Shown: positions 10,673 to 32,317 of the stretch, piece by piece
Position numbering within the stretch: the stretch's first letter is position 1
How the letters are laid out: each line of letters starts with the position of its first letter
DNA from: Treponema sp.
GTDB lineage: Bacteria > Spirochaetota > Spirochaetia > Treponematales > Breznakiellaceae
Assembly (NCBI GenBank): GCA_009784935.1
Contig: WQXI01000003.1
Location: 1 to 64,000 of the forward strand
Length of the DNA stretch: 64,000 nt
Direction: 5' to 3'
Translations under genes and position numbers: made by a program
The notes under the pieces: model-generated
Seen by the model: the letters and a program-made list of their open reading frames with translations, nothing else
Databases searched by the model: none
What the model was told of the DNA's origin: nothing

Positions 10673-10736
10673 TTCACAAAAATTATCAAGAATAATTTGC
10701 ATATGTGTTATATCACACCGGTAAAAGGAGAAAGAT

Positions 10737-12167
10737 ATGGACTCAAATTTAAGTTTCTATAAAGAAAACAAAAGGTATAACGATGCTATCACGTATCTAA
10801 AAAAAGAGCAAGGAAAAAATCCGAATAATGCTCAAATTAAAGCAGATTTAGGCTATTTTTATGATATTAACGGCTGCAAAAAAGCAGCTATTAAAGTTTA
10901 TTCTGAAGCAATAAAATTAGATCCAAATTTACCCATAGTTCGCCATAATCGAGGATGGGTAAATTTAAGATTTGGACGTATGAATGATGCATTAGCAGAT
11001 TTTAATGCTGCAATTTCATTAGGTCTTAAAGATTACCGCACATTTGAGGGGCGAGGTCTCTGCCATAAGTCTTTGGGCTTATTGGATTTAGCAGTCAATG
11101 ATTTTGACAAAGCAATCGAGTTAAATAAAGCAAGTGTAGAATTAATTATAAACCGTGCCCACTTATATTTTAGGCTTAAAAAATATGAACAAGCCAAGGA
11201 AGATCTTTATATGAGCTTGGGATTAAAATATTCAAATTTCGATCCAACAGATTATGTTTCTATTTTTCATAGAAGTAACCTTGAAGAAGGAAAAGAGACA
11301 GGAAACATGATTATCAAAGCAGGATTTAATATAGAAATAGAAAAGAATGATGATATGTTTGTAATAATGCCTTGTACAAGTACAATCAACAGAACTATTT
11401 TGCCATTGATTAATTTTGATATCAAAAAAGATGTGCTTTTGCATTTACAAAAATATAAAGATTGTTATGCTTTTAAAGCAGAACCTGATATTGAAAATAC
11501 AATAAATAAAACCGATTCTCAGTATTTGGATAGTATTAATATAGATAAAGACAAACTTCGTTTCTATTTGTCTTTAGATAATGTAAAATGCTTTGCGTTA
11601 TATAAAGACAAAAAACTCGTCGCATGGGAAATTGGAATAATAAACGATGGAGGAAAAATATATTCTTCAATTATCAGGTTCTATGATCCTGCAGAACAGT
11701 TAACCGGAAAAATTCGTATTAATTTCCTAGTCGAGCATTTAAAAAGTATTGGGGTAACTTTAATTGACTTTGGATCAAGTAAAGATAAATGGAATAATCT
11801 CTTTAGTTTTGGAGCAGAAAATATTGATGCGCACACTTATTTACAATTGTTTAAAGAACTAAGTTCCTCCCCAAAACCTATTTTTTACATAGGGAGCGGA
11901 AAAATTAAAGAAAATATCACAGGGAGATATTTTATGGTTCTCTTAAATAATGATAATACAACACAAGATTTTGTTGTAGACCTTCTAATGGAATTATTTA
12001 ATTTTGATCTGCATAAGGCAACAATGCTTATGCTCGAAACGCATCGTAATGGTAAAGGTGTGATAGGAACAACTGATGCAAAAATGGCAGTTCCATTAGT
12101 TCAATATATTCAAAAAACAGCAAAAGATAATGGACATACATTAATTTGCTTATTAGAGGAGGTTTAA
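10737..12167 (+). CDS. Three-domain protein: TPR repeats, L/F-tRNA-protein-transferase-like domain, ClpS domain
   Basis: Residues about 8-165 are TPR repeats (AIKVYSEAIKLDPNLP, AVNDFDKAIELNKAS). Residues about 190-385 resemble leucyl/phenylalanyl-tRNA-protein transferase (Aat, a GNAT-like fold): an early AGF segment and VAWEIGIINDGGKIYSS, where Aat has LVGGLYGV..G..F.GESMFS. LIDFGS follows at 342-347, where Aat has LIDCQ (Asp344 kept, Gln replaced). Residues 398-476 are a ClpS domain: VLLNNDNTTQDFVVDLL, ETHRNGKGVIG and AKDNGHTLICLLEE. The ClpS histidine in the N-degron pocket is kept, but the gatekeeper Met is Gln. No signal peptide, so cytoplasmic. The fusion suggests target choice, N-terminal marking or recognition, and delivery to ClpA in one chain. 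Activity is unproven. Confidence 0.7.
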   Translation: MDSNLSFYKENKRYNDAITYLKKEQGKNPNNAQIKADLGYFYDINGCKKAAIKVYSEAIKLDPNLPIVRHNRGWVNLRFGRMNDALADFNAAISLGLKDYRTFEGRGLCHKSLGLLDLAVNDFDKAIELNKASVELIINRAHLYFRLKKYEQAKEDLYMSLGLKYSNFDPTDYVSIFHRSNLEEGKETGNMIIKAGFNIEIEKNDDMFVIMPCTSTINRTILPLINFDIKKDVLLHLQKYKDCYAFKAEPDIENTINKTDSQYLDSINIDKDKLRFYLSLDNVKCFALYKDKKLVAWEIGIINDGGKIYSSIIRFYDPAEQLTGKIRINFLVEHLKSIGVTLIDFGSSKDKWNNLFSFGAENIDAHTYLQLFKELSSSPKPIFYIGSGKIKENITGRYFMVLLNNDNTTQDFVVDLLMELFNFDLHKATMLMLETHRNGKGVIGTTDAKMAVPLVQYIQKTAKDNGHTLICLLEEV

Positions 12168-12168
12168 T

Positions 12169-12450
12169 ATGAAGTTTTTACAAAATGATGTTATCGAATA
12201 TTTAGAAGCAGACAAGAAGCGTAACAGTAAAAATGGCAAATGGACTGAATTTGAAGAAACTTTACTGCAAACTTTTAAGATGAACGCTCCCATTTCAAAA
12301 TATGCTCTTGAATGTGCTGTAAACAGATTAGAAAATGAGCCGTCAACTGATTCAGAAATATATACGTTAAAACTGATCAATTATTTAATTGATTATTTTA
12401 TTCAGTTTGAACAATTAGCGAATACATTGGATACTATTAAAACGGTGTAG
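12169..12450 (+). CDS. Small unrecognised protein coupled to the ClpS-fusion gene
   Basis: The 93-residue product is predicted mostly helical and acidic, with no signal peptide, membrane segment or motif I recognise. It starts one base after the stop of the ClpS-fusion gene and has a strong GAGGAGG just inside that gene's end, so the two are translated together. This suggests a partner or regulator of the fusion protein. No paralogue is seen beside the second clpS. Confidence 0.65.
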   Translation: MKFLQNDVIEYLEADKKRNSKNGKWTEFEETLLQTFKMNAPISKYALECAVNRLENEPSTDSEIYTLKLINYLIDYFIQFEQLANTLDTIKTV

Positions 12451-12548: not shown

Positions 12549-15500
12549 TCAGAGCAATCCATCAATCAACACAAAAGCAGCCCAGTTGTAAGGATCAGGG
12601 TAAAGTTTGCGTATTTTTTTTTGGGCTTCTCTAAAAGCATCTTGTTTGCTTTTTCCAGACAGCCAGTTACGGTAAAAATCGGTCATCATCATTTGAGAAG
12701 ACTTATCCTCAACCTGCCAAAGACTCATAATAATTGTTTGTGCTCCCGCAAGCTTAAACGCTCTTTGCAACCCAAATACCCCTTCGCTGTTGTCTACCTC
12801 ACCTAATCCGGTTTCGCAGGCTGACAATGCCACAAGTACCGCTCCTGTTAGGTTCATCTGTGCGACTTCGTTTGCAAGAAGAATACTGTCCACTTGCTCC
12901 CCTTTTTTGCAATTATTGCCTCCGGCAAACACAAGCCCGGATCTTAAAAGCGGATTTAAGTACACCCTTTTACCGCCTCCAAGACGTTCCAGCCATTCGT
13001 AATCTTTATTATTTCTTCTATCATCCTGTATGAAGAACCCATGCGTCGCAAGGTGTATCACATTGGTTTGTTTATCTGTACTCTTGAATGATTCTTTGTT
13101 ACCTTCAGCACGCATGTACAATTCTGACACTATATCTTTTTCTTTTAGCCTTTTGTGAATCTCTTCACTTTCTTTCGCCGAATAAGCCAAGTGCTCCCAT
13201 TCTCCGCTGCGTTTTTTAAGTTCATCATGCAGTTCAAGTTTTTCTAAATCATCTTGATTTTCCGGAACTTTATTCTTTATACTTTCGGAACTCAGATTAT
13301 AATAAATTCCGCCGTAAACGACAGCTGACTTCGGCTTGCATTCCCTCTTTGTGTTGCGGCGTACCACTTCACGTGTGCTGGAAACAAGATTTAAGTCGTA
13401 TATATCTGTAAGATGTTTTCCCTTTTCTACAGGAATTGCGCTAAAACTGATTTTGTGTAATAACCCCGATGGCGAATAGTAAATGGTTTTAACGCCTTCT
13501 AAAACTTCCTTTAAAGGTTTCCAAACTGTGTTATACAGGTCATAGTTATTTTCATTGTAGAGAATGTTAGTAATTCTTTGTGAATCTTTTTCGCCTTCTG
13601 ATTTTTTAAAGATTGAAGCAAGCTGACTTTCTTCACACAGGGGAACCCATTCGGGTGCATCCATGCCTGTTCGTAAAATTAGAGCCGCATACTGCGTAAC
13701 TGTTACTTGTTCATCATATTTGTCACAAAGTATAAAAGAGACAAACTCGATAGCGGCTTCATTTGCTTGTAAATGATCCCGAACATTCTGCCATCCAAGG
13801 TTAAAGTCCTCATAAAATTCTTTGAAAGCTCGAGAGGTTTGGGTGAGATATTCATCCAGCGTATTTGCCTTTAATTCCAGATCATGTATGTACGATTCAT
13901 TGCCATCGTTCCTCTGTAATAATACTTCGATCTTTTGTTTAAGGCGATCAAGCTCTTCAAATTGTGAGATAAGTTTCTTGTCATTTGTATTGTAGATAGA
14001 ATCCCGTACTGCATTAGCTGTTCGAAGCAGAAGACCTTTTATAAATAGAGTGTTGTCATAGCTGAGGGAATTACTTTCAGGAGTGGTGTAGAACCAAGAA
14101 AGAAAATAGCTTGCTTCAAGCGTATTTGTCATTTCATTCCCGTAATGATTCCGTTGACGTGTTGAGAGTAAAGAAAAATTTTTAATTACCAGAGTTTTAA
14201 TAAGAATATCCGCTTCTAGTTTATACTTGATGGCTTGTGCATAATTACCCATGTCACAATATAACAAATTTAGATTGTTTAATGATATGGCATAAACCTG
14301 ATTTTTCACCCCCAGTCTTATTTCTCTAATTTTTTTTGCTTCAAGGAAATATTCCTTTGCTTTCTCATAATCTACCATGTATCTATACAAGTGTCCCAAA
14401 TCATCTAATAATATAGCATAATTTGGGTGTTCTTTGCTCTGTATCATCTTCCCATTGTGCAGCAATTCCCAGTAATGTTTAGCTTCAAGAAGATGCTCTT
14501 CTGCTCTAAAATCGTCTTTCTTGGACAAATATAGCTTGCCCATTCTTTTTTCCATACCTGCATTAATTAAAAGATTTTTATTTGGTGTTTTTACGCAGAT
14601 ATGATACGCCTTAAGAAGATATATTTCCGCTAAGTCAAAGTCTCCTTTGGATAGATAAAGTTCACTTAGGTCGACTAATGAGTCCATATAATCCATAGGT
14701 TCTCTTTCCTGCGCACTTTTTATTATGTCATTCGCCTTAAGATAGTTTTCCTCTGCCAATTTAAAATTCCCCATGGATAGGTACTTTTCACCCAAATTTC
14801 TTAATGAGTCTGCATCATTCAAAACATCCTTTTCTTGTGTGTCATCTTTTATGTCTTTCGCTTCAAGAGAACATTCTTTCGCTGAGGAATAGTCTCCCAT
14901 GAATTGGTATAATTGACTCAGATCATTTAATAAATTCACATATATTAAACTTTTTTTGCTTGGCGTTTTTTTTAATATGTTTTTTGCCTCAAGATAATTC
15001 TTTATTGCTGAATTATAATCTCCCATACTACTATATAGGTGAGCTAAATAAATTAATGAATCAGAATAGCTCAGAGGATCCTTTCTCCATGTCCTTTTTT
15101 CTATGTTTTTAAATTTAAGCAAGTATTTTTTTGCAGAGAGAAAATTTCCAAAAATTATATATAGTTTACCCATGTTGCGTAACAGTTTAGTATAAAATGG
15201 ATGTTTCTTTACTTGTACATTTTTTGTGATTTTTTCTGCTTTACGATAGTAATCCCATGCTTTATTATTTTCTTTAAAATAATAGTACGCACTACCTAGT
15301 TTGAATAAGAACATAAAATATTCTAATGTGTCTTTTTTCCGAATGCTTTCTTCAATATTTTTTAGCTTAATTTCATATTTTATCCATGAAACATCGTCTT
15401 CAAGCAGGCGATATACTATGCCTAAAGCCATAATTGCATCATAATAATCCGGTTTCAGCTGTAATGCCCGCTCTAATTTCTCAATGGCTTTAGAATAATC

Positions 15501-15566
15501 ACCATTTTTAATAAATTTTTCGCTTTGTTCATAGAAAGACTCAGCGGTTTCATTATCACTTAACAT
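12549..15566 (-). CDS. TPR-CHAT caspase-like protease
   Basis: The 1005-residue protein starts with about ten TPR units of the kinesin-light-chain spacing (residues 5-480). A helical linker (about 480-640) and a C-terminal CHAT domain (about 680-1005) follow. The catalytic pair is intact: His842 in HLATHGFF and Cys917 in LSACETGLG. Other CHAT landmarks are LLLANEVAQM-like, GVFGLQRAFKLAGAQTIIMSLWQV and WAAFVLIDG at the end. CHAT proteases include Craspase (Csx29) and separase-like defence enzymes, where a sensor releases protease activity on a specific substrate. It is the last gene of a four-gene minus-strand operon. The likely substrates or sensors are the unknown proteins upstream. No signal peptide. 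Confidence 0.9.
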   Translation of the reverse strand: MLSDNETAESFYEQSEKFIKNGDYSKAIEKLERALQLKPDYYDAIMALGIVYRLLEDDVSWIKYEIKLKNIEESIRKKDTLEYFMFLFKLGSAYYYFKENNKAWDYYRKAEKITKNVQVKKHPFYTKLLRNMGKLYIIFGNFLSAKKYLLKFKNIEKRTWRKDPLSYSDSLIYLAHLYSSMGDYNSAIKNYLEAKNILKKTPSKKSLIYVNLLNDLSQLYQFMGDYSSAKECSLEAKDIKDDTQEKDVLNDADSLRNLGEKYLSMGNFKLAEENYLKANDIIKSAQEREPMDYMDSLVDLSELYLSKGDFDLAEIYLLKAYHICVKTPNKNLLINAGMEKRMGKLYLSKKDDFRAEEHLLEAKHYWELLHNGKMIQSKEHPNYAILLDDLGHLYRYMVDYEKAKEYFLEAKKIREIRLGVKNQVYAISLNNLNLLYCDMGNYAQAIKYKLEADILIKTLVIKNFSLLSTRQRNHYGNEMTNTLEASYFLSWFYTTPESNSLSYDNTLFIKGLLLRTANAVRDSIYNTNDKKLISQFEELDRLKQKIEVLLQRNDGNESYIHDLELKANTLDEYLTQTSRAFKEFYEDFNLGWQNVRDHLQANEAAIEFVSFILCDKYDEQVTVTQYAALILRTGMDAPEWVPLCEESQLASIFKKSEGEKDSQRITNILYNENNYDLYNTVWKPLKEVLEGVKTIYYSPSGLLHKISFSAIPVEKGKHLTDIYDLNLVSSTREVVRRNTKRECKPKSAVVYGGIYYNLSSESIKNKVPENQDDLEKLELHDELKKRSGEWEHLAYSAKESEEIHKRLKEKDIVSELYMRAEGNKESFKSTDKQTNVIHLATHGFFIQDDRRNNKDYEWLERLGGGKRVYLNPLLRSGLVFAGGNNCKKGEQVDSILLANEVAQMNLTGAVLVALSACETGLGEVDNSEGVFGLQRAFKLAGAQTIIMSLWQVEDKSSQMMMTDFYRNWLSGKSKQDAFREAQKKIRKLYPDPYNWAAFVLIDGLL

Positions 15567-15587: not shown

Positions 15588-16505
15588 TTACTCTTCGTTA
15601 TCAAAAAAATCTCTTAATATTTGATCAACATCAGCAAAGTTAGGATCAATTGCTTTTACCTTATCAAAAGCATTTTTGGCTTCTTCTTTTCTGCCTTCTC
15701 TTAAATGAATTGAACCAATAAAATAATAGACTATGACTTCTAAATTATATTTATTAATATTAGTTATCTCTTCAAAATCTTTTAAAGCATTATAGTGGTC
15801 AAATATTTCATAATACGCAAGTCCTCTTACAAGTAGTGCAGGTAGAGAAGTTTCATTCTTTATTTCTAAAACTTTACTTGCAAATTTAATTGCATTATCA
15901 ATATCTTCACTTTTTAAATATAATACTGCAAGATTCATTAAAGCTTTGTAATCATCAGGGTTATTTTTAATTTTACTAATATTTTCATTTATCTGAATAT
16001 TTAGATTGGGCTTTTGTTTGTTAGAAACATTTCCTTTTCTTGTTCGACCTGTATAAAAAGGAAAATCAATTTTTATTTCACAAATAGTAATATAATAATA
16101 TCCCAAATTTTTTTTATTTTCTTTTATTTTTTCTTTTATTCTTTTACATAGATCAAGTGTATAATAATAAAACATTGGATTACACATGCATGCTGTAAGA
16201 AGTAACTTAATATTTTTATCTTTTTTTTGAATATTATATTTATTTTTAACATCATTTGATATATAATAATTTTTACAATAATAGTCAACAACCTCACTAA
16301 CATCATTTTGTGCAAGAAGACCCACTATTTCTAAAGATAACATTTCATCTTCCATATTATTCTTTTTAAAAATACTTAACATTTTCTTTATTTTTTCTTT
16401 GTTTTCCTCAGCACAATAATATATATCATCAAAAGTTACATGGTTTTCTAACATAAGAGTATTTAATAATCTGCTTGCTTTTTGTTTCATTAAAGTACTT
16501 GTCAT
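15588..16505 (-). CDS. TPR protein of the CHAT operon
   Basis: The 305-residue, lysine/asparagine-rich protein has an unrecognised helical N-terminal half and TPR repeats in the C-terminal half (about residues 165-300: ALMNLAVLYLKSEDIDNAIKFASKVLEIKN, FIGSIHLREGRKEEAKNAFDKVKAIDPNFADV). The start ATG overlaps the upstream stop as ATGA and has GAGGAAAG before it. The gene is markedly AT-rich compared with the flanking housekeeping genes. It sits between an unknown 613-residue protein and the TPR-CHAT protease, so it may be an adaptor bringing them together. Confidence 0.75.
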   Translation of the reverse strand: MTSTLMKQKASRLLNTLMLENHVTFDDIYYCAEENKEKIKKMLSIFKKNNMEDEMLSLEIVGLLAQNDVSEVVDYYCKNYYISNDVKNKYNIQKKDKNIKLLLTACMCNPMFYYYTLDLCKRIKEKIKENKKNLGYYYITICEIKIDFPFYTGRTRKGNVSNKQKPNLNIQINENISKIKNNPDDYKALMNLAVLYLKSEDIDNAIKFASKVLEIKNETSLPALLVRGLAYYEIFDHYNALKDFEEITNINKYNLEVIVYYFIGSIHLREGRKEEAKNAFDKVKAIDPNFADVDQILRDFFDNEE

Positions 16506-18343
16506 TTCTTTCCTCTTAAATTATTAATTTCTTCTATCTTTATTATTATAGTATGCAAAATATTTCTTATTTTTTTACGAAATTCAACTATTATTACTAT
16601 ACTTATTAGCTTTCCTTTTGAACCTTTAATATCTATATATAATTCAACCATTTTTTTAACAAAATGTGTAATATTATGTTTTTGAATACTCATTTTATAT
16701 AAGTATTTATTTCTTGAGAACATAACACTAATATTATATTTTAATTCATTAATAAATTGTACGTCTTCTTTAGTATTGTAATCATCACTTGGAAATTCTT
16801 TATCGACCACTAGATTAATAATATTATTTATTTTATTATGTTCAAATTCTCCAAAAAATATGTTTTCTGGAGAATGATTTACCTCGCTAATAAATAACCC
16901 CCTTTCAGTAGATATAATATCGCTAATTTTAATTTCTTTACCATCTTTACCATAAATAGGATTATCAATAGATACTATTTTGTTTTTTTCTATTTCATCC
17001 AATAATTTTAAAAATATTTTGGAAAATATAAATCTTATATATTTATTATTAATAAAATCTTTATTTTTAGGATCATTTTTTATCATATTTAATGTATCTA
17101 ATTTATTTTTATAATTATTTTTACATTTATGAATACTTCCACTTATAACATCTTTTATATTTTTTATATTTTCAATTAATAAATTATCAGATAAAACAAC
17201 ACCTAAAATATTAATTTTTTCTATTATCTTGTTTTTTTCTTTTTGTGTAAGTATTGATACATAAGACACTCCTTTAGAATAAAGTTCATAAATATATTTA
17301 CAATAATCATCCATTAATATTTTTGCAACATAAGTTTCCATTAAAAATTTGTTATTTTTTTTATTATTTATTATTTCATATAATGCTTTTATCATATTGA
17401 AAATATCATTATCATCAATTTTAACATATGCTTCCTTTAATATTTTCTCTGATTTTTCACTGATAAATTCAGAAGGTAATAATCGGATCACTTTGTTATA
17501 TCCCTTTTTTATATATTCGATATCTTCAGCATTCAATACTCTTTTATTTTCTATAAAATCATTTAATAATATTTTCATTCTTTTTGTAAATATTTTATTA
17601 TCAGGCTGAACTAAAAATGAATTGCTACTTTCGTCTTTTAATAAGAAATACATTGCCTTAATAATATCATAAACCTCATCTTCATTTTTTGCTATGAACG
17701 CATTTGCTAATATTTCTTTTGATTCTGGCATTAAATAATCAGATGATAATATTATAGCTATTTGATTAAACTTATTACGAATAGTTGTTTTGTTTCCGTC
17801 TGTTATATTAATATCAATGTTCTTATACTTTTTTAATACTTTTGACTTTTTATCATAGTATTGAATATTTCTAATTAATGTTTCTGGTTTAGTTGGAATA
17901 TGTATGTCGAAACCTTCTGCACATCCTTCTAAAATATAATTAATAATGTTATTATATATATCCATTAGTTTTTCATCTTTTCTAACTCTACTTAAAAATT
18001 TATTATCTATCTTTACATTTATTGGTGATTTAATATCTTCAAGATTATAAATTAACATATTTTTATGTCTTTCTTCTATATTTAATTTATTTATTAATAC
18101 TTTATTTAACGAGCTGATAGAATGATCATTATTTATTTTTTCCATAATTTCTTTTTTAATATGTTCTTTAACTATTTCATCATTCAATGTGCCTAGTAAT
18201 ATTTTCATAGTTGAATATATTGGATTTTCTAATTTATATAATATCTTATAATTTTCTTCGTATCTATTAAGAAGATCTCTATAAAAAGGTATCGTTTCTT
18301 TAAGATGAGAAAAAAATTGTTTTTTATAATGTTTATAAACCAT
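16502..18343 (-). CDS. Unrecognised 613-residue helical protein with internal repeats (CHAT operon)
   Basis: I recognise no family. The sequence is very AT-rich, lysine/isoleucine/asparagine-rich and almost entirely helical in pattern. Residues about 195-470 contain three related segments of about 92 residues beginning near 195, 286 and 377. Each has a (I/L)xSxxL(L/M)xExxK(E/N)I opening followed by a D(I/V)...IKALY-type helix in the first two. The solenoid-like repeats suggest a binding scaffold. The start follows the stop of the preceding gene as TAAATG and the end overlaps the next gene by ATGA, so it is firmly part of the CHAT operon. It could be a sensor or substrate of the protease. Confidence 0.65.
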   Translation of the reverse strand: MVYKHYKKQFFSHLKETIPFYRDLLNRYEENYKILYKLENPIYSTMKILLGTLNDEIVKEHIKKEIMEKINNDHSISSLNKVLINKLNIEERHKNMLIYNLEDIKSPINVKIDNKFLSRVRKDEKLMDIYNNIINYILEGCAEGFDIHIPTKPETLIRNIQYYDKKSKVLKKYKNIDINITDGNKTTIRNKFNQIAIILSSDYLMPESKEILANAFIAKNEDEVYDIIKAMYFLLKDESSNSFLVQPDNKIFTKRMKILLNDFIENKRVLNAEDIEYIKKGYNKVIRLLPSEFISEKSEKILKEAYVKIDDNDIFNMIKALYEIINNKKNNKFLMETYVAKILMDDYCKYIYELYSKGVSYVSILTQKEKNKIIEKINILGVVLSDNLLIENIKNIKDVISGSIHKCKNNYKNKLDTLNMIKNDPKNKDFINNKYIRFIFSKIFLKLLDEIEKNKIVSIDNPIYGKDGKEIKISDIISTERGLFISEVNHSPENIFFGEFEHNKINNIINLVVDKEFPSDDYNTKEDVQFINELKYNISVMFSRNKYLYKMSIQKHNITHFVKKMVELYIDIKGSKGKLISIVIIVEFRKKIRNILHTIIIKIEEINNLRGKK

Positions 18344-19114
18344 TTATTTCTCTCTATTTTGAAGATTATCTGCAGTAAAACCTAAAATTGTATACACACT
18401 ATGAGCAAAACGCCGATATCCTGCATAAATATTTTTTGGTTTATGAAAACTTATACTCGATAAATCCCATTCAAAACATTTTTCTTCTATATTATACTCT
18501 CCATATATTTTTTCACTATCTACAATATTAAAAAACAATTCTGGAACAGATTCATTAAAATTAAATCTTTGATATTTTTTTTCAAACTCATCAGAAAATA
18601 CTTCTTCATCAATATTAATTAAGTATTCTTGAATATTAAAACATTCTTTTTTTGCTTTTTCTATTAAATTTTCAAGTGTCTGCAATTTTGCCTGCTTTCT
18701 TAATTCTTTTTTTAAATTATCTTCTTGTATTTTATTTAAACTAATAAATTTATCTTTGTTTTGACCAAGCAATTTATTAAAATATAATTCTACCAAATAA
18801 TTACCCTTAATTAAACTAAGAAATAGATTGTCTCTAAGCATACTAAGAATATCAAACCCCATTATTGGTAAGGGGTTAGGTTTCAAAAAATATTGCATAT
18901 GTGAAGGTAGTTTATGAATTTCATCTTTATCAAATCGAAAATATTTTTTTAATATTTCAAATGGAGGGTAAAAAACATAAGGAAAATACTCTAAAAATAA
19001 CTGTATAGTCCAATCATTTTGAGCATCAGTTATATAATCATCTATCATTAAAAGCAATCTCTCCTTATATGTCAAAATATAATTATGCCTTATCTGAGGA
19101 AAATTGTCAATCAT
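18344..19114 (-). CDS. Unrecognised 256-residue protein (CHAT operon)
   Basis: The family is unknown to me. The protein is AT-rich in coding sequence, aromatic in the N-terminal part (FLEYFPYVFYPPFEILKKYF) and charged in the middle (coiled-coil-like, about residues 120-165). It ends with a YRRFAHSVYTILGFTADN segment. No signal peptide or clear membrane segment. I prefer the ATG at 19114 because it overlaps the stop of a 30-codon ORF as ATGA; an in-frame TTG at 19120 is the alternative. The stop is contiguous with the next start (TAAATG). Confidence 0.6.
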   Translation of the reverse strand: MIDNFPQIRHNYILTYKERLLLMIDDYITDAQNDWTIQLFLEYFPYVFYPPFEILKKYFRFDKDEIHKLPSHMQYFLKPNPLPIMGFDILSMLRDNLFLSLIKGNYLVELYFNKLLGQNKDKFISLNKIQEDNLKKELRKQAKLQTLENLIEKAKKECFNIQEYLINIDEEVFSDEFEKKYQRFNFNESVPELFFNIVDSEKIYGEYNIEEKCFEWDLSSISFHKPKNIYAGYRRFAHSVYTILGFTADNLQNREK

Positions 19115-19203
19115 ACGCAAAAAACCTGTGATTCAATACCTATTACCTCCATCTTATGCTTCTTGAACAAAAAATCTGGATAAAACAAAGGGATATTCAT
19201 CAT
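19111..19203 (-). CDS. 30-residue ORF at the head of the CHAT operon
   Basis: This short frame begins with two Met codons (MMNIPLFYPDFLFKKHK...) and has the strongest ribosome site of the operon, AAGGAG five bases upstream. It ends in an ATGA overlap with the 256-residue gene. The placement indicates that ribosomes enter here and couple into the next gene. It may be a true small protein or a leader peptide. It is too short for family assignment. Confidence 0.5.
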   Translation of the reverse strand: MMNIPLFYPDFLFKKHKMEVIGIESQVFCV

Positions 19204-25388: not shown

Positions 25389-27080
25389 ATGATCAACGAG
25401 AAAAATGAAAAGAATCAAAAGACATTCGCGATAGCGTTAGCCTCCTATGGCTCCCCAAACCATTCGGACGTTTGGCAAGACCTTACCCTCAATACATTGA
25501 AAGGTCATATTATGGGAGTTTTTGGTGATAAGGTTAGCGTTGATACATATCGTATTCACAGTAATAACGATATTGATAAGCTTATACAAAATTTTTCAGA
25601 AAAGAACTATGGTCTTATTGGATTTTCACTTGATAATGCTTCTAAAGAATTTTTCTTTAAAACTTTGTCATGTATAAATAAAAGTAATATTACTACTCCT
25701 CCAATTATTGTGGGCGGAGTTTTAGCTACTTCGGCTCATGATGTTTTAATTGAAAATAATGAAGATTTTATTAAATTAAAACCATTGATTGTAACCGGGA
25801 GGGGAGAAGTGGCTCTCCAAGAGTATGTTCATTCATTATTGAATGATATTCCATTAGATAAGCCTTTGGATAACACATATTTGTATAACCCAATTACTGG
25901 TAATTATGAAAAAGGAAAAACAAAAAGAGTCGATCTTAGCAAATTAAAATATCCTCCAGCTGCAAATTCGAATACTGATAATAAAAATCAAGTTCAAGCT
26001 GTTCAGAACTCATGTAGCTGCTATGGCAAATGCTCTTACTGCAGTCAGCATGGTACAGCAAATACATGGCAATCTTTTCCCATAGAAAGGATCAAGATGG
26101 ACCTCGAATCTGCTATTTTGCAAGAAAAGTATGAATTGGAATTTGTAGACGAGGACTACTTCGGATGGCCCACGACCAAGCATTTAGAGAGAGCATATAA
26201 GTTAGGTGACATTATAAACGAACTTAGACTTAAGTATCATGTCAATATCCAGTTTAGAATCTTCACTAATCCAGTCGTAATCGCAAATAAGAATGTAAGC
26301 TCGGATGGAAGAACTTTCCGTGATTTACTTAAGTATTATCAAAATTTGGGTCTTTCTCGTGTATACCTTGGCATAGAGAGTTTCTCTGCTGATCAACGCC
26401 TCCGCTACCATCGCCGAGATTCTCTGGATGATTGCTTTTCTGCAATTCAGCTTTTAGATGAACTCGGAATTGAGTGCGATGCCGGCTTTATAGCATTCGA
26501 CGCAGAATCTAGTTTGCAAGACTTGATCAACAATTGTGCGGGCATAAGAAAGTCCAATCTTCTAAAGTATAATACATGGCCTATGAGAGCAATGATTTTA
26601 ACATACGGGACCGCCATGTATCACCGTATAAAAAGTCTTGGATTGTTAGGTGTAAGATCAGAAGAAAATCCTGCCTCATTCACGTATAAGTTTTTAAACC
26701 CTGATGTTGAGCAAATATATAATGGAATAAAATTCATAGCAGACTTAAGTTCTTCGCTGTTTATAATATTAAAGTATTTCTTTAAGCAGTTCTGCATGAG
26801 CGAAAAACACAAAGATAAGGTACAAACAATTTTTTGTTTTATTAAAAAAAACGGAGAACTCAATCTTGAGTACATGGAAGACATGATAGCTGAATTAAAA
26901 AATCATAACAGTATTGCCAAAAGCACCGCTGTAATCCGGCAAAAGTTATTAAATTTAGTGAATGAAATTAATAACAATATCGGTATATTAGATGTTTTTG
27001 ATTATGATACTACTCATTTACAAAAAAGCATTAATAATACATTACAAGCTCTTGCATCAGGAGATAATAATGTTCAGTAA
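25389..27080 (+). CDS. B12-binding-like/radical SAM protein
   Basis: The N-terminal 165 residues follow the cobalamin-binding-like Rossmann pattern of class B radical SAM enzymes (FAIALASYGSP, GLIGFSLDN, PPIIVGGVLATSA, LIVTGRGEVALQEYV). The radical SAM motif C-Y-G-K-C-S-Y-C (CX3CX2C) lies near residue 213. A TIM-barrel with FVDEDYFGWP, IQFRIFTNP, RVYLGIESFSADQRLRYHRRDS and IECDAGFIAFD follows. The DxHxxG cobalamin motif is not evident, so the N-domain may not bind B12. The helical C-terminal 150 residues are unassigned. The reaction is unknown. The gene end overlaps the next TPR/Aat-like gene by 11 bases, tying it to the N-degron-like genes. Confidence 0.8.
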   Translation: MINEKNEKNQKTFAIALASYGSPNHSDVWQDLTLNTLKGHIMGVFGDKVSVDTYRIHSNNDIDKLIQNFSEKNYGLIGFSLDNASKEFFFKTLSCINKSNITTPPIIVGGVLATSAHDVLIENNEDFIKLKPLIVTGRGEVALQEYVHSLLNDIPLDKPLDNTYLYNPITGNYEKGKTKRVDLSKLKYPPAANSNTDNKNQVQAVQNSCSCYGKCSYCSQHGTANTWQSFPIERIKMDLESAILQEKYELEFVDEDYFGWPTTKHLERAYKLGDIINELRLKYHVNIQFRIFTNPVVIANKNVSSDGRTFRDLLKYYQNLGLSRVYLGIESFSADQRLRYHRRDSLDDCFSAIQLLDELGIECDAGFIAFDAESSLQDLINNCAGIRKSNLLKYNTWPMRAMILTYGTAMYHRIKSLGLLGVRSEENPASFTYKFLNPDVEQIYNGIKFIADLSSSLFIILKYFFKQFCMSEKHKDKVQTIFCFIKKNGELNLEYMEDMIAELKNHNSIAKSTAVIRQKLLNLVNEINNNIGILDVFDYDTTHLQKSINNTLQALASGDNNVQ

Positions 27081-28446
27081 AAATATTGAATATGAAAATG
27101 ATTGGGAAAAACTCTTTGATATTGGCAATGATTTTTATTTTAAAAAAGACTTTTTAAACGCTAAAAAGTTTTATTCTAAAGCAATAAATATTTTAGAATC
27201 TAAAGATCATTTATCACCTATGTTAAAACGCAATTTGACAAATATAAAGCATAATGCAATTTCTATTCTTGATGATTTAGGCGACAGAGCGCTTGCAATA
27301 AACGGCATGCTTGATCTAGTGGAGGAAAATCCTGATTATTACCTTGCGTATAACTCATTAGGATGGCTGTACAAGGAAGAAGCTAGAAAAATTGACAGGC
27401 AGATTAATAAGCTATCGCAAAAAGGATTTACTAACTTAAATACACAGCATGAGCAAAATAATATAAAATCCTTATATAAAAAAGCGATTCACTATTATGA
27501 CTTGTCAATATCTACAGAAAGACCCTATTGGTTACATACATCCTATGGATCAAAAGGGTATTGCCTTAGTGAAATAAAACAATACGAGAAAAGTCTAGAA
27601 TGCTATATTACAGCTGACAAGCTAAAAAGATTTAACCATGACTATGTATATTCCATCGGATTAATGTATTTTAAATTATTAAATTATAATTCTGCGCTGC
27701 ATTACATCCGTGAAGCAACCAAGATTAGATATAAAAAAATATACTCGGATAACATGGTTTCTTTTTTTTCTCCGCCTCAAGCAGATGATTTTTTTAATGC
27801 ATATAAAAATCTGTTTATTACAGGATACAATCCCAGTTACTTAGGAAATATCTTTAAAGAAGACTCTATAATTTTTCCTTCCAGAAATGACAGAGTCTGC
27901 TTATCACCGATTAGTAATATTTTTAAAGGAAAAACATATTTAAAAGAGTCAAAAAAACGCATCGAAAAAATCGGAGAGCGTTACAAATTAATATTTGAAT
28001 ATGACGATCATGCAGAAGTTCTAAAACGATTAAGCGAATGTTATAAAAATAATAATTTTTTTAAAATCGTAAAGAAGTTATCATTAATTAGTTCTGATGA
28101 CTTTAAAATAGTCACTGTTATATTATTGCTGGATGGAGATTTTGCATCTTGTGATTTGGCTGCCATTATTAAAAACAGAATATATATTAGTTTTTCCGGT
28201 ATCACTATTGTCAATAACTCCGGCAAAGATCTATTTATATTAATTGCTAAACACTTAATAAAAATGGGAATCCGGGTATGGGACGTTGGATCCACAAGTT
28301 TTGGCGATCCTTTTTTAAAATATAAACTAGATCATGGCTTTGAACAGGTTACAACAGAAAAATATCTGGAAATATTTAATTGTGCCGTTTCGTGCACAGA
28401 ATATAAAGGAGTAAGCGATGGACAGCGAAATGAAAGCTTTTTTTAA
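27070..28446 (+). CDS. TPR plus L/F-transferase-like protein (second copy)
   Basis: The start at ATG 27070 has AGGAGA six bases upstream inside the previous gene; the longer frame from 26992 has no ribosome site. Of 458 residues, about 10-225 are TPR-like (NDFYFKKDFLNAKKFYSKAINILES, KQYEKSLECYITADKLKR). About 245-440 resemble Aat: FITGYNPSYLG, IIFPSRNDRVCLSPI, LLDGDFASCDLAAIIKNRIYISFSG, LIAKHLIKMGIRVWDVGS and the ending EQVTTEKYLEIFN, where Aat has a DYLNYL-type end. Asp405 matches the Aat IDCQ aspartate; the Gln is replaced by Gly. The gene overlaps its neighbour by 29 bases. No ClpS domain is fused, unlike the 10737 gene. Confidence 0.68.
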   Translation: MFSKNIEYENDWEKLFDIGNDFYFKKDFLNAKKFYSKAINILESKDHLSPMLKRNLTNIKHNAISILDDLGDRALAINGMLDLVEENPDYYLAYNSLGWLYKEEARKIDRQINKLSQKGFTNLNTQHEQNNIKSLYKKAIHYYDLSISTERPYWLHTSYGSKGYCLSEIKQYEKSLECYITADKLKRFNHDYVYSIGLMYFKLLNYNSALHYIREATKIRYKKIYSDNMVSFFSPPQADDFFNAYKNLFITGYNPSYLGNIFKEDSIIFPSRNDRVCLSPISNIFKGKTYLKESKKRIEKIGERYKLIFEYDDHAEVLKRLSECYKNNNFFKIVKKLSLISSDDFKIVTVILLLDGDFASCDLAAIIKNRIYISFSGITIVNNSGKDLFILIAKHLIKMGIRVWDVGSTSFGDPFLKYKLDHGFEQVTTEKYLEIFNCAVSCTEYKGVSDGQRNESFF

Positions 28447-29671
28447 TGACTATATGATAGATGCAAATAAATATTATTTTCAAAGAGATTTTATAAAAGC
28501 GTCAGATTACTATAAAAAGGCATTAAAAATAAATCCAAATGATCCGGATGCTCAATTAAATGACGCATGCTGTGACGATGAAATAGGTCAAACTGACTTA
28601 GCAATCGAAAAATTAGAAAATATTGTTAAAAACCATGACTATTTTACATTAGGGTTTTATAATCTTGGCTTTCTTTATAAGAAAAAAAAGTTATATTCAA
28701 ATGCCATTAAAGTTTATACTAAAGCAATTAATCTAATACTGGATAAATATTTGTTTATAAATAAACCATCATCAAATAAACTCTTATTAGACAGCTATTG
28801 CGGAAGAGGATCGTGTTTCGAAGATCTTTTATTATATGATGAGGCAGAGAGAGATTACATTGAATCAATAGATATAAATCCAAAATGTTCATATATTTAT
28901 AAAAATCTCCTGCGTATCAATTTAAAAAGGAATGAAATTGAATTGGCGGAATATAATGCAAAAAAAGCATTTAAATTAATATACCCAGAATGCAGGGATC
29001 CTGGTAAATTTGTTACAGTTGTAACATTTGATTCGCTTCACGAAAAAGTAGAAACAGTAAGTAATACGATTAAAGCTGGATTTTATCCCGGATATATCGG
29101 AGAATTCGGAAAAACAATGGTTCTAATGCCGTTATTATGCGGTAGAATCATTTTACATCTTGATAAAATTAGAATAAACAAATTTATGACTAGGCATTTA
29201 AAAAATACAAAATATTATTTAGAAGAATCAAAAAATGTCACATTTATGGCTGATAAATTAATTGAGTATTATAATGCGTATAAAAAAACCGTGGTTGACC
29301 CTTCTTATTTATTATTTTTACGGTATTACCTTGAGGCTCTTAATCAAACAGATGATCATTTAATAGGAACCAGCGTCTCATTATTTGATGAAAACAATGA
29401 ATATTGTGCCGGAGATTTGGGCGTGCTAAATGGAAGAATATATACTTCTTTTTCTGGTCATAAATTAAAAAACAATGCAGGCACATCTCAATTAATTTTA
29501 TACGCAAAAGTTTTAGAAGAAGATAAAAAATGTCTTATCAAAGACTTTGGACCTGACAATTTCAATTTTAACCAATATAAGCTAAGACTTAAGGCTCAAT
29601 TATATACAGCAAACGATTATCTTAACCTGGCAAGAAAAATAAATCCTTATGCAAATAAATATTTTTATTAA
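28418..29671 (+). CDS. TPR plus L/F-transferase-like protein (third copy)
   Basis: The 417-residue protein has TPR repeats over about 12-190 (YYFQRDFIKASDYYKKALKINPNDPDAQLN is the clearest). An Aat-like domain spans about 205-410. This copy gives the clearest match: IKAGFYPGYIG, then VLMPLLCGRIILHLDKIRINKFMTRHLK for the Aat segment with the SPDPR and HISRSM motifs. YCAGDLGVLNGRIYTSFSG then stands for LVGGLYGVALGGVFFGESMFS. KDFGPD at 375-380 stands for IDCQ, and TANDYLNLARK for the C-terminal helix. GESMFS is not conserved, so substrate or chemistry probably differs. AAGGAG lies seven bases before the start. It precedes clpS by 27 bases. Confidence 0.72.
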   Translation: MDSEMKAFFNDYMIDANKYYFQRDFIKASDYYKKALKINPNDPDAQLNDACCDDEIGQTDLAIEKLENIVKNHDYFTLGFYNLGFLYKKKKLYSNAIKVYTKAINLILDKYLFINKPSSNKLLLDSYCGRGSCFEDLLLYDEAERDYIESIDINPKCSYIYKNLLRINLKRNEIELAEYNAKKAFKLIYPECRDPGKFVTVVTFDSLHEKVETVSNTIKAGFYPGYIGEFGKTMVLMPLLCGRIILHLDKIRINKFMTRHLKNTKYYLEESKNVTFMADKLIEYYNAYKKTVVDPSYLLFLRYYLEALNQTDDHLIGTSVSLFDENNEYCAGDLGVLNGRIYTSFSGHKLKNNAGTSQLILYAKVLEEDKKCLIKDFGPDNFNFNQYKLRLKAQLYTANDYLNLARKINPYANKYFY

Positions 29672-29698
29672 TTATAGCCAAATAACAGGAGTAAACTT

Positions 29699-30019
29699 AT
29701 GGTAAATTTATTAAAAGAAAAATTATCAAAAAAGACAAAAACTAAAAACAGTCAAAAACAAAAAAAGGAGAAGGACTGCAGTATTATTCTTTTAAATGAT
29801 CCGTATACAACCATGGATTTTGTGGAAAACGAAATACTGTCAGGTATTTTTAATTTAAGAAAAAAAGACGCAAAAAGAATAACTCTTGCTGTCCATAATA
29901 ATGGCAGCGGAATAATCGGTGTATTTCCCAGAGATACAGCAATAAGAAAAATAGAACAAGTACATTTAAAGGCTGCGGCGTATGAATTCCCGCTTAAATG
30001 TATATTACAAGAATGTTAA
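29699..30019 (+). CDS. clpS: ClpS adaptor protein (N-degron recognin)
   Basis: After a basic N-terminal tail of about 25 residues (lysine-rich) comes a complete ClpS fold: IILLNDPYTTMDFVENEIL, ITLAVHNNGSGIIGVF, HLKAAAYEFPLKCILQE. ClpS binds N-terminal Leu/Phe/Tyr/Trp and hands substrates to ClpA. Pocket residues are partly kept. Asn-Asp of NDD is present but the third residue is Pro, the Thr and gatekeeper Met are present (TTM), and the pocket His is present (AVH). The usual Met one turn before that His is Thr. The specificity may therefore be altered. clpA starts 13 bases later, the classical clpS-clpA order. Confidence 0.9.
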   Translation: MVNLLKEKLSKKTKTKNSQKQKKEKDCSIILLNDPYTTMDFVENEILSGIFNLRKKDAKRITLAVHNNGSGIIGVFPRDTAIRKIEQVHLKAAAYEFPLKCILQEC

Positions 30020-30031
30020 TAGGAGGTTTTT

Positions 30032-32317
30032 ATGAATTATTCAAACGAATTACAGAATATTATTGACGAGTCTTTTAAACTGACTCAAAAAGAGGGCTAT
30101 GAATTTATAACCGCAGAACACGTTCTATATTACGCTCTTTTAAATAAGACGTTTTTAGATATAATTCGCAAAATGAAAAACGTAGCTTTATATATTATCG
30201 GTAATCGGCTTCAGGAATATTTTAAAAAAGAAATACCTAAATCAAAGAATTACGCTCCGCCGCTAAAAACCCAGAGTTTCATTGAATTACAAGAAAAAAT
30301 GCAGGAAGAAAGCAAGATACGTCATACAGCTACAAACCCTCCGCCAAAAAATTGGCATGAAATGCTGGAAGCAGAAAAGCAAATCATTATTGATATTCCC
30401 GACCTTTTTATAGCTCTTATGGAAATAAAATCCGTTTGCAGCATTTTAAAAGAAGCTGGAGTAACTAAACTAAAATTAAGAAGTGTTCTCTCTCATACCG
30501 GTAATTTTTGCGAGCTAAGTAATATGAGTAGATTAAATGTTTCTAATAAAGATTGGGGAATACCTTTTACAACCGATCTAACCGCTCTCGCGCAAAATAA
30601 CCTATTAGAAGACTGTATCGGCAGAGACCAAGAGATTGCTTTAACTATCGAAATTCTTAACCGCCGAATTAAGAATAATCCCATACATGTAGGAGATGCA
30701 GGGGTAGGAAAAACAGCTATAACAGAAGGCCTTGCGATAAAAATTGCAGCTAACGATGTCCCAGAAAGATTCAAGGGCTCAAAAATTTTAGCGCTTGATT
30801 GCGGCGCTCTCGTTGGGGGGACAAAATACCGTGGTAGCTTAGAGAAAAGAATTAACCAAGTGCTTCATGAACTAAAGAGAAAAGATAAGGCGATCTTATA
30901 TATAGACGAGATGCAAACATTAATCAGTACTGCAAACACAAAAATGGACTTTATGAATTTACTAAAACCCGCCATTGCCCGCGGCAATCTATCCGTAATA
31001 GGCGCTATGACAACCGAAGACTATAATTTATTTGAAAAGGACCGTGGGCTTTCCCGCAGATTCCAGAAAATATTAATCGACCAGCCTAGTATAGAAGAAA
31101 CAATAGAAATTCTTACCAAAGTTAAAAACAAGTACGAGGAATTTCATGATGTAAATTTTGGTAATACGATCGAACATATTGTAAATCTTTCAGCGTATAT
31201 TCCGGGAAAGCGCCCTGATGTATCAATTAGCCTAATGGACACCATTGGCTCTCATGCCCGAATAAACGCAAAAGATAACAGCACAATAGATATCCAACTT
31301 TCTCATGTAGAAAAAATGGTTTCTAAACTAGGTCATATCCCGGTTAATACAATTTGCGATGATGAAAGGATCCAATTACAGGACTTGGAAACCAAGCTTA
31401 AGCAGCGTATATTCGGGCAGGATGACGCAATTGCGGCAGTTGTTAAAGCCGTAAAACGATCGAGAGCGGGATTTAGAGCCGAAAGTAAGCCGATTGCGAA
31501 TTTACTTTTTGTTGGCGCAACCGGCACGGGTAAAACAGAGCTTGCGCGTCAATTAAGTGAGCTTCTCGGAATAAAAATTATTCGCTTTGACATGAGCGAA
31601 TACGGAGAAAAACATTCTGTCAGCCGGTTGATTGGCGCGCCGCCAGGATATGTTGGTTATGAAGAAGGAGGACAGTTAATAAACGCAATTCGCAGCCACC
31701 CACACGCATTATTACTGCTTGACGAAATCGAGAAAGCACATAGCGATATCTTTAATATCCTGCTTCAGGTGATGGATTACGCAACGCTTGATAACCAAAA
31801 TAAACAAACTGATTTTCGTAATATCATATTGATCATGACTAGCAACGCAGGCGCAAGAGATATTGGTAATGGGCGGCTTATTGGTTTTGGCGACAGAGTC
31901 CAGGACGACAGCGCCATCAATGATGAAGTACGAAAAATATTTACACCCGAGTTCCGCAACAGACTGGACGCAGTTGTCAGCTTTGGACCTCTGTCGCGCA
32001 ATATTATGAAAAATATCGTACGTAAAGAATTGGATGCTTTTTCGTCACAGCTTGCAGAAAAAAATGTGACGCTGATTGTTACCGACTCTTGTATCAACAA
32101 ACTTGCCGAAGACGGTTATAGCAAAGAGTTCGGCGCGCGAAATGTGAGCCGACTTATCGATGAAAAAATTAAAGATAATTTTTTGGACGAAATTCTTTTT
32201 GGAGAATTACGCGAAGGCGGCAGCGCTGTTGTTGATTGGCGCGGTGAATACTGCATGGACATCCAAGAAAAACAACATGCAAAAAAGAACTTAAAAAAGT
32301 TAATATCTGCTGTTTAA
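30032..32317 (+). CDS. clpA: ClpA-type AAA+ unfoldase
   Basis: The 761-residue protein (E. coli ClpA is 758) has a Clp N-domain (1-150), AAA1 with Walker A GDAGVGKT (221-228), Walker B ILYIDE (288-293) and pore loop KYRG, and AAA2 with Walker A GATGTGKT (495-502), Walker B LLLLDE and pore loop GYVG (539-542). The ClpP-docking tripeptide is present as IGF at 617-619, so it should work with ClpP, which is not in this window. The Walker B extension reads DEMQTL where DEIHTL is usual. The N-domain is the ClpS docking site. It is the last gene of the operon and is followed by a strong terminator. Confidence 0.95.
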   Translation: MNYSNELQNIIDESFKLTQKEGYEFITAEHVLYYALLNKTFLDIIRKMKNVALYIIGNRLQEYFKKEIPKSKNYAPPLKTQSFIELQEKMQEESKIRHTATNPPPKNWHEMLEAEKQIIIDIPDLFIALMEIKSVCSILKEAGVTKLKLRSVLSHTGNFCELSNMSRLNVSNKDWGIPFTTDLTALAQNNLLEDCIGRDQEIALTIEILNRRIKNNPIHVGDAGVGKTAITEGLAIKIAANDVPERFKGSKILALDCGALVGGTKYRGSLEKRINQVLHELKRKDKAILYIDEMQTLISTANTKMDFMNLLKPAIARGNLSVIGAMTTEDYNLFEKDRGLSRRFQKILIDQPSIEETIEILTKVKNKYEEFHDVNFGNTIEHIVNLSAYIPGKRPDVSISLMDTIGSHARINAKDNSTIDIQLSHVEKMVSKLGHIPVNTICDDERIQLQDLETKLKQRIFGQDDAIAAVVKAVKRSRAGFRAESKPIANLLFVGATGTGKTELARQLSELLGIKIIRFDMSEYGEKHSVSRLIGAPPGYVGYEEGGQLINAIRSHPHALLLLDEIEKAHSDIFNILLQVMDYATLDNQNKQTDFRNIILIMTSNAGARDIGNGRLIGFGDRVQDDSAINDEVRKIFTPEFRNRLDAVVSFGPLSRNIMKNIVRKELDAFSSQLAEKNVTLIVTDSCINKLAEDGYSKEFGARNVSRLIDEKIKDNFLDEILFGELREGGSAVVDWRGEYCMDIQEKQHAKKNLKKLISAV

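Follow-up and report, generated by a model that had tools for sequence, protein, structure and literature searches.

Bacterial N-degron pathways are usually taken to comprise free Aat, free ClpS, and ClpA. The locus described here, which lies in a Treponema sp. window of 64,000 nucleotides (the whole stretch of DNA that was analyzed), raises the question of what a single chain carrying a TPR region, an Aat-fold domain, and a ClpS domain would do. The gene at positions 10737-12167 (forward strand) was a single uninterrupted ORF of 476 codons, complete at 476 aa in the ORF list and translation, and a Shine-Dalgarno sequence, AGGAG (10726-10730, +), was located 6 nt upstream of its ATG. The TPR region (residues 1-165; 10737-11231, +) comprised approximately five helical hairpins and was assigned by Pfam TPR_1 (E 6e-19), with repeats across about 160 N-terminal residues, by Foldseek, and by an AF2 model, in which ten helices spanned residues 2-164. 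It was followed by an Aat-like (L/F-transferase-fold) domain (residues 175-378; 11259-11870, +), assigned from family matches to PF03588, the AF2 model, and Foldseek. An 18-residue linker (residues 379-396; 11871-11924, +) separated the last helix of the Aat-like domain, which ended at residue 377, from a ClpS domain beginning at residue 397 (residues 397-475; 11925-12161, +) and identified by PF02617, matches to ClpS chains in the PDB, and a residue table.

The single-chain TPR, transferase-like, and ClpS arrangement proposed in a first-pass annotation was confirmed by the open frame, its start signals, the Pfam TPR and ClpS matches, and the predicted Aat fold. Because the frame is intact and a Shine-Dalgarno sequence is present, an assembly artefact is an unlikely source of the fusion; we also do not consider chance a serious explanation for its domain matches, and we are nearly certain of the fusion as a fact of the sequence. 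Downstream, a 93-aa orphan protein is encoded at 12169-12450 (+). Its AGGAGG (12157-12162) falls inside the final codons of the fusion, which makes joint translation of the two genes probable; a search of 200 family genomes gave no homolog of the orphan with an E-value under 0.02.

First, we compared the C-terminal domain with ClpS, relying on profiles and alignment, as the modeled part of the protein was residues 1-389. PF02617 matched residues 397-471 with an E-value of 3.2e-17 and a score of 62.5 bits, where the cut-off is 23, the match spanning positions 5-79 of an 80-position profile, and phmmer against solved structures retrieved ClpS chains (e.g., 3o2o, E 3e-15). Alignment to E. coli ClpS, the N-degron adaptor of ClpAP, was gap-free from residue 397 to the end, so that both the HMM search and the alignment bore out the annotated full-length ClpS core. 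With 45 canonical ClpS proteins from the genus and order as reference, the fusion retained Leu32, Asn34, Thr38, Val43, Ala58, Met62, His66, Gly69, Gly74, and Leu99, of which Asn34, Thr38, Met62, His66, and Leu99 are common to E. coli ClpS; residues listed for the N-terminus-binding pocket include Leu32, Asn34, Thr38, Val43, Met62, His66, and Leu99 (PMC12493166). Among the contacts to the α-amino group, Asn34, Thr38, and His66, the last as annotated, were retained, and Asp35, present in all 45 relatives, was replaced by Asn; the loop therefore reads N-N-D and not N-D-D, the form under which it had been described. Judged from the sequence, D35N could weaken N-terminus binding. The gatekeeper Met40 was indeed Gln and Val65 was Thr, at positions where Met and Val occurred in every relative, and Y37N was a further change within the pocket or next to it. 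The gatekeeper Met was present in the free ClpS at 29699.

Next, we focused on the docking face. In E. coli, the ClpA contacts on ClpS are Glu79, Glu82, and Lys84 (PMC12493166). Position 79 was Lys in the fusion and Asp in 45 of 45 relatives, and position 84 was Leu in the fusion and Lys (44/45) or Arg (1/45) in the relatives; Lys79 and Leu84, together with D35N, M40Q, and V65T, set the domain apart from canonical ClpS. Glu82 was set aside as a docking marker, as it is missing from the canonical ClpS of the same genome. The N-terminal extension of E. coli ClpS enters the ClpA channel, and delivery is inhibited when the extension is blocked (PMC9663308). Unlike E. coli ClpS, the fused domain forms the C-terminus of a TPR/Aat-fold chain, and the 396 residues preceding it leave no free flexible extension. 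With both docking charges and the free extension gone, ordinary delivery to ClpA is doubtful. Loss of Lys84 is nevertheless no proof of lost docking, because Leptospira ClpS1 has Val at this position and still inhibits the ClpA ATPase in vitro (PMC12493166), and because a second ClpS (ClpS2) in another genome of the genus, G020, has Met84 and adjoins its own ClpA2. Docking of the fusion on ClpA is accordingly uncertain from these residues.

Our preferred reading, to which we assign a probability of roughly 0.4, is that the fusion is a cis-linked N-terminus reader with an altered preference and at best a weak ClpA-ClpP delivery adaptor. One chain would tether the TPR scaffold and the Aat-fold domain to the ClpS domain, which would mainly read protein N-termini with a changed preference. 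Through its pocket, the ClpS domain would recruit proteins bearing certain ends to the TPR/Aat-fold part, and the latter would act on the bound protein by a different transfer, from another donor, or would only bind it. We infer N-terminus binding, changed specificity, and lost or weakened ClpA docking from the retention of the pocket core while D35N, M40Q, and V65T depart from all 45 relatives, and from the replacement of the extension by the 18-residue linker alongside the loss of the charges at 79 and 84. As key residues for tagging and for protease delivery are changed, the fusion probably represents a new type of reader of protein ends and not an ordinary tag-and-degrade machine. The recurring association of Aat-type, ClpS, and ClpA genes, on C33 of the same genome, in operons of the window and of G020, and in the fusion itself, also speaks for this reading.

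To place the fusion among the Clp genes of its genome, we compared these sets. C33 carries a canonical clpS-clpA-aat set, and two ClpP genes are present in the genome. The operon in the window is arranged as TPR-Aat, TPR-Aat, ClpS2, ClpA2, all on the forward strand. The first TPR-Aat paralog (27070-28446) begins at an ATG with AGGAG; its mechanical ORF start at 26992 overlaps a radical-SAM gene, and 27070 is the likelier start owing to the better Shine-Dalgarno sequence. The second paralog (28418-29671; PF03588 E 4e-4) has an Aat region 76% identical to its G020 counterpart and is followed by the free ClpS2 (29699-30019; PF02617 E 2e-22) and by ClpA2 (30032-32317; TIGR02639 E 1e-238, below the cut-off of that model). 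The same four genes, ClpS being separate, occur in G020; there they lie in reverse orientation within the same chromosomal slot, between transketolase and P-type ATPase genes. The first-pass annotation had named separate genes in other strains as a refuting result; none was obtained, since the TPR-Aat and ClpS genes of G020 are counterparts of those at 28418 and 29699, not of the fusion. The free ClpS at 29699 named by the annotation exists, although not as the sole free ClpS, the second of the two being on C33. From the C33 set, the window operon, and the fusion, Aat-type and ClpS-type linkage occurs three times in this genome, once as a fusion.

The second ClpS/ClpA set, preceded by two TPR-Aat genes (25389-32317 of the window and L040 6270-11207), was found in two genus genomes only, and a B12/radical-SAM-like gene lies upstream of it in the window. 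The set has the appearance of a parallel system dedicated to reading N-termini. The ClpS2 of G020 (L040 8533-8847) has Phe as gatekeeper, Ala62, and Met84, all non-canonical.

Some of the data would also suit a dedicated delivery adaptor, with target choice by the TPR and Aat-fold parts and docking of the ClpS end on ClpA1 or ClpA2 for handover to ClpP: the genome has a ClpA2, a canonical ClpA, and two ClpP genes, TPR-Aat genes share an operon with ClpS2-ClpA2 in two genomes, and Leptospira ClpS1 tolerates loss of Lys84 (PMC12493166). This possibility is weakened by the loss of the conserved charges at 79 and 84 and by the missing free extension, given that a blocked extension inhibits E. coli delivery (PMC9663308), and we regard it as doubtful.

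To characterize the middle domain, we combined profile searches with structural prediction. In the Pfam scan, PF03588 did not appear among the matches of the fused protein up to E 1. Relatives with TPR and Aat-like parts in six other genomes matched PF03588 with E-values of 3e-12 to 6e-20, as did a free single-domain Aat-like relative in the same genome (E 3e-23). Because an alignment mixed with free ClpS rows put the Aat C-termini in the wrong place, the TPR-Aat part was modeled without ClpS; the AF2 model of residues 1-389 from 38 sequences had a mean pLDDT of 92.6 and a pTM of 0.88, and a single-sequence model (mean pLDDT 37) was useless. Foldseek with the model of residues 1-389 returned TPR structures first and the L/F-transferase 2z3k at rank 35 (E 3.4e-7; TM 0.61 by target). 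A profile of the TPR-Aat set ranked L/F-transferase chains at the top of the PDB, but with an E-value of only 0.24. The model, the Foldseek match, and the weak PDB profile match together indicate an Aat fold with distant sequence kinship.

The active site was compared at Glu156, Asp186, and Gln188, which, by E. coli Aat numbering and roles, we take to be the catalytic residues; the Glu156 and Gln188 positions were read in canonical Aat from the CGESMF and DCQ motifs. In the alignment, the fusion had Ile312, Asp344, and Gly346 against Glu, Asp, and Gln in the canonical Aat of the same genome. In the relatives, both TPR-Aat and single-domain, Tyr or Phe stood in the place of Glu156, and Gly in that of Gln188 as in the fusion; the Asp186 equivalent was retained. 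A YTSYSG motif, its core conserved in 25 of 25 single-domain rows and the motif closely kept in the TPR-Aat rows, was replaced by YSSIIR at fusion residues 309-314, the DxG at 344-346 was retained as DFG, and Trp took the place of Gly297. Since the whole TPR-Aat family has no equivalent of Glu156 or Gln188 and YTSYSG is gone from the fusion, leucine/phenylalanine labeling by the fusion is unlikely; such transfer is not supported for the TPR-Aat family, and even less for the fusion. On the model and alignment, the term transferase-like is valid for family and fold and not for active-site residues. The idea, raised in the first-pass annotation, of L/F-type labeling coupled to recognition finds no support in these residues or in the lost docking charges and extension.

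A free Aat-like protein of approximately 240 aa (L042 5890-6618) has counterparts in most family genomes and carries YTSYSG and DxG motifs where Aat has catalytic residues. This protein exceeds the Pfam L/F-transferase cut-off, and its annotation as Aat may be wrong.

A writer and reader in one chain, in which the Aat-fold domain adds an acyl or aminoacyl group to N-termini and the ClpS domain reads the product, would accord with the Aat family and fold, the retained Asp186 equivalent, the operons shared by Aat and ClpS genes, and the pocket altered by D35N and V65T. Given that the Glu156 and Gln188 equivalents are missing across the TPR-Aat family and that YSSIIR has displaced the family motif, we consider it unlikely. 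A more specific version, in which an Aat-fold domain using a non-canonical donor modifies N-termini chosen by the TPR part and the altered ClpS domain reads them and holds them or passes them to ClpA2, appears less likely still.

The slot containing the fusion is a variable island, whose flanks have a GC of approximately 0.44, as opposed to 0.30 for the fusion and 0.20 close to it. TPR-CHAT proteins are a caspase-like peptidase type found in conflict systems. One such gene (12549-15566; PF12770 E 2e-58) immediately follows the fusion and runs in the opposite direction. Three ORFs with a GC of 0.20-0.24 occupy 15588-19120, one encoding a TPR protein and two having no match in the defence library; this low-GC block is probably foreign. 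The whole fused protein, used as query against the contigs of the genome, gave TPR matches only, the query being poorly suited. The fusion might be an anti-adaptor or decoy that binds N-degrons or ClpA without delivery and damps the ordinary ClpS pathway, perhaps as part of a conflict on the island. The blocked extension combined with a retained pocket fits a non-delivering binder, and the low-GC variable island with its TPR-CHAT gene next door would suit such a role; the defence library, however, gave only a trivial TPR match for the fusion and nothing specific, and we hold this explanation to be improbable.

We further surveyed the distribution of the fusion. Of 42 ClpS places in 40 genus genomes, only the fusion gene had a long fused frame. 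We found no second TPR/Aat/ClpS fusion in these genomes or among the TPR-Aat genes from 200 genomes of the family, and neither set yielded an ortholog of the fused gene. The long TPR-Aat matches in the family genomes all ended past the Aat-like domain, except in G008, where the contig ends inside the gene, and no ClpS was present in the long Aat-like frames examined across the family and phylum. The family and phylum ClpS tables list the better-scoring matches, and on these the rarity of the fusion is supported but not proven. Plasmid and phage records gave only matches of the free-ClpS type, covering approximately 25% of the query. Other long frames resembling fusions with ClpS (at window 29783 and in G020, both having a closely spaced next gene, and in G051, G040, G502, and G125) were separate genes or spurious upstream frames; that of G502 crosses an antisense flagellar-type gene.

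In the tree, the fusion was nested in a six-row group of TPR-Aat proteins (support 98/92), with that of G008 as the nearest relative (87/64), and sat on a very long branch. The TPR-Aat profile, itself built with the fusion sequence, matched the fusion with E 1.5e-78. The lack of an ortholog that would show selection on the fused form speaks against the reader, as does a GGGAG located 7 nt ahead of an in-frame ATG at codon 400 (11922-11936, +); this potential internal start could release a free 77-aa ClpS core and may have a chance origin. The occurrence in a single genome, the long branch of the Aat-like part, and this internal start would fit a gene formed recently when a stray clpS was joined in frame to a TPR-Aat gene in decay, either functionless or producing ClpS from codon 400, but such an accident is very improbable in view of the 476-codon open frame, the strong Shine-Dalgarno sequence, the confident fold, the gap-free intact ClpS core, and the coupled downstream gene.

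The reader interpretation can be set beside known systems. Leptospira interrogans, like the fusion host, is a spirochaete with more than one ClpS, having two, and its ClpS1 resembles the fusion in having a non-canonical gatekeeper (Tyr; Gln in the fusion) and no Lys84 (Leu in the fusion); unlike the fusion, it is a free protein of approximately 106 residues with an extension and inhibits its ClpA in vitro (PMC12493166). Compared with Aat (PF03588; 2z3k), the fusion shares the fold and the Asp186 equivalent, and differs in the missing Glu156 and Gln188 equivalents, the absence of its own PF03588 match, and the TPR region in front. The TPR-Aat-like proteins (window 28418, G020, G440, G547, G562, G536, G442, and G492) have the same order of TPR and Aat-like parts, but none of those listed has ClpS in-chain or shares the fusion's loss of YTSYSG. 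Ubr1-type N-recognins likewise contain a ClpS-like domain inside a large single chain and use it to read N-termini; these are eukaryotic ubiquitin ligases with no TPR-Aat part, and the likeness is an analogy only (PMC4447728). The Pfam scan detected no UBR box or RING ligase domain in the fusion. Conflict-system proteins with inserted L12/ClpS domains are bacterial, multi-domain, and of ClpS fold, as is the fusion, but their described partners are vWA, HTH, or membrane proteins, with no Aat-fold domain (PMC7159879, PMC12419801).

Inserts of the L12/ClpS type in bacterial proteins (PMC7159879, PMC12419801) and ClpS-like domains in eukaryotic N-recognins (PMC4447728) are already known; a fusion of ClpS with an Aat-fold domain was not encountered in the open-access papers searched. 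An Aat fold and a ClpS fold in one chain, in the vicinity of a TPR-Aat/ClpS2/ClpA2 operon, suggest that parallel N-terminus-reading systems have been built, and the fusion provides a natural case in which to ask if ClpS, employed purely for reading, can do without its free extension and its docking face.
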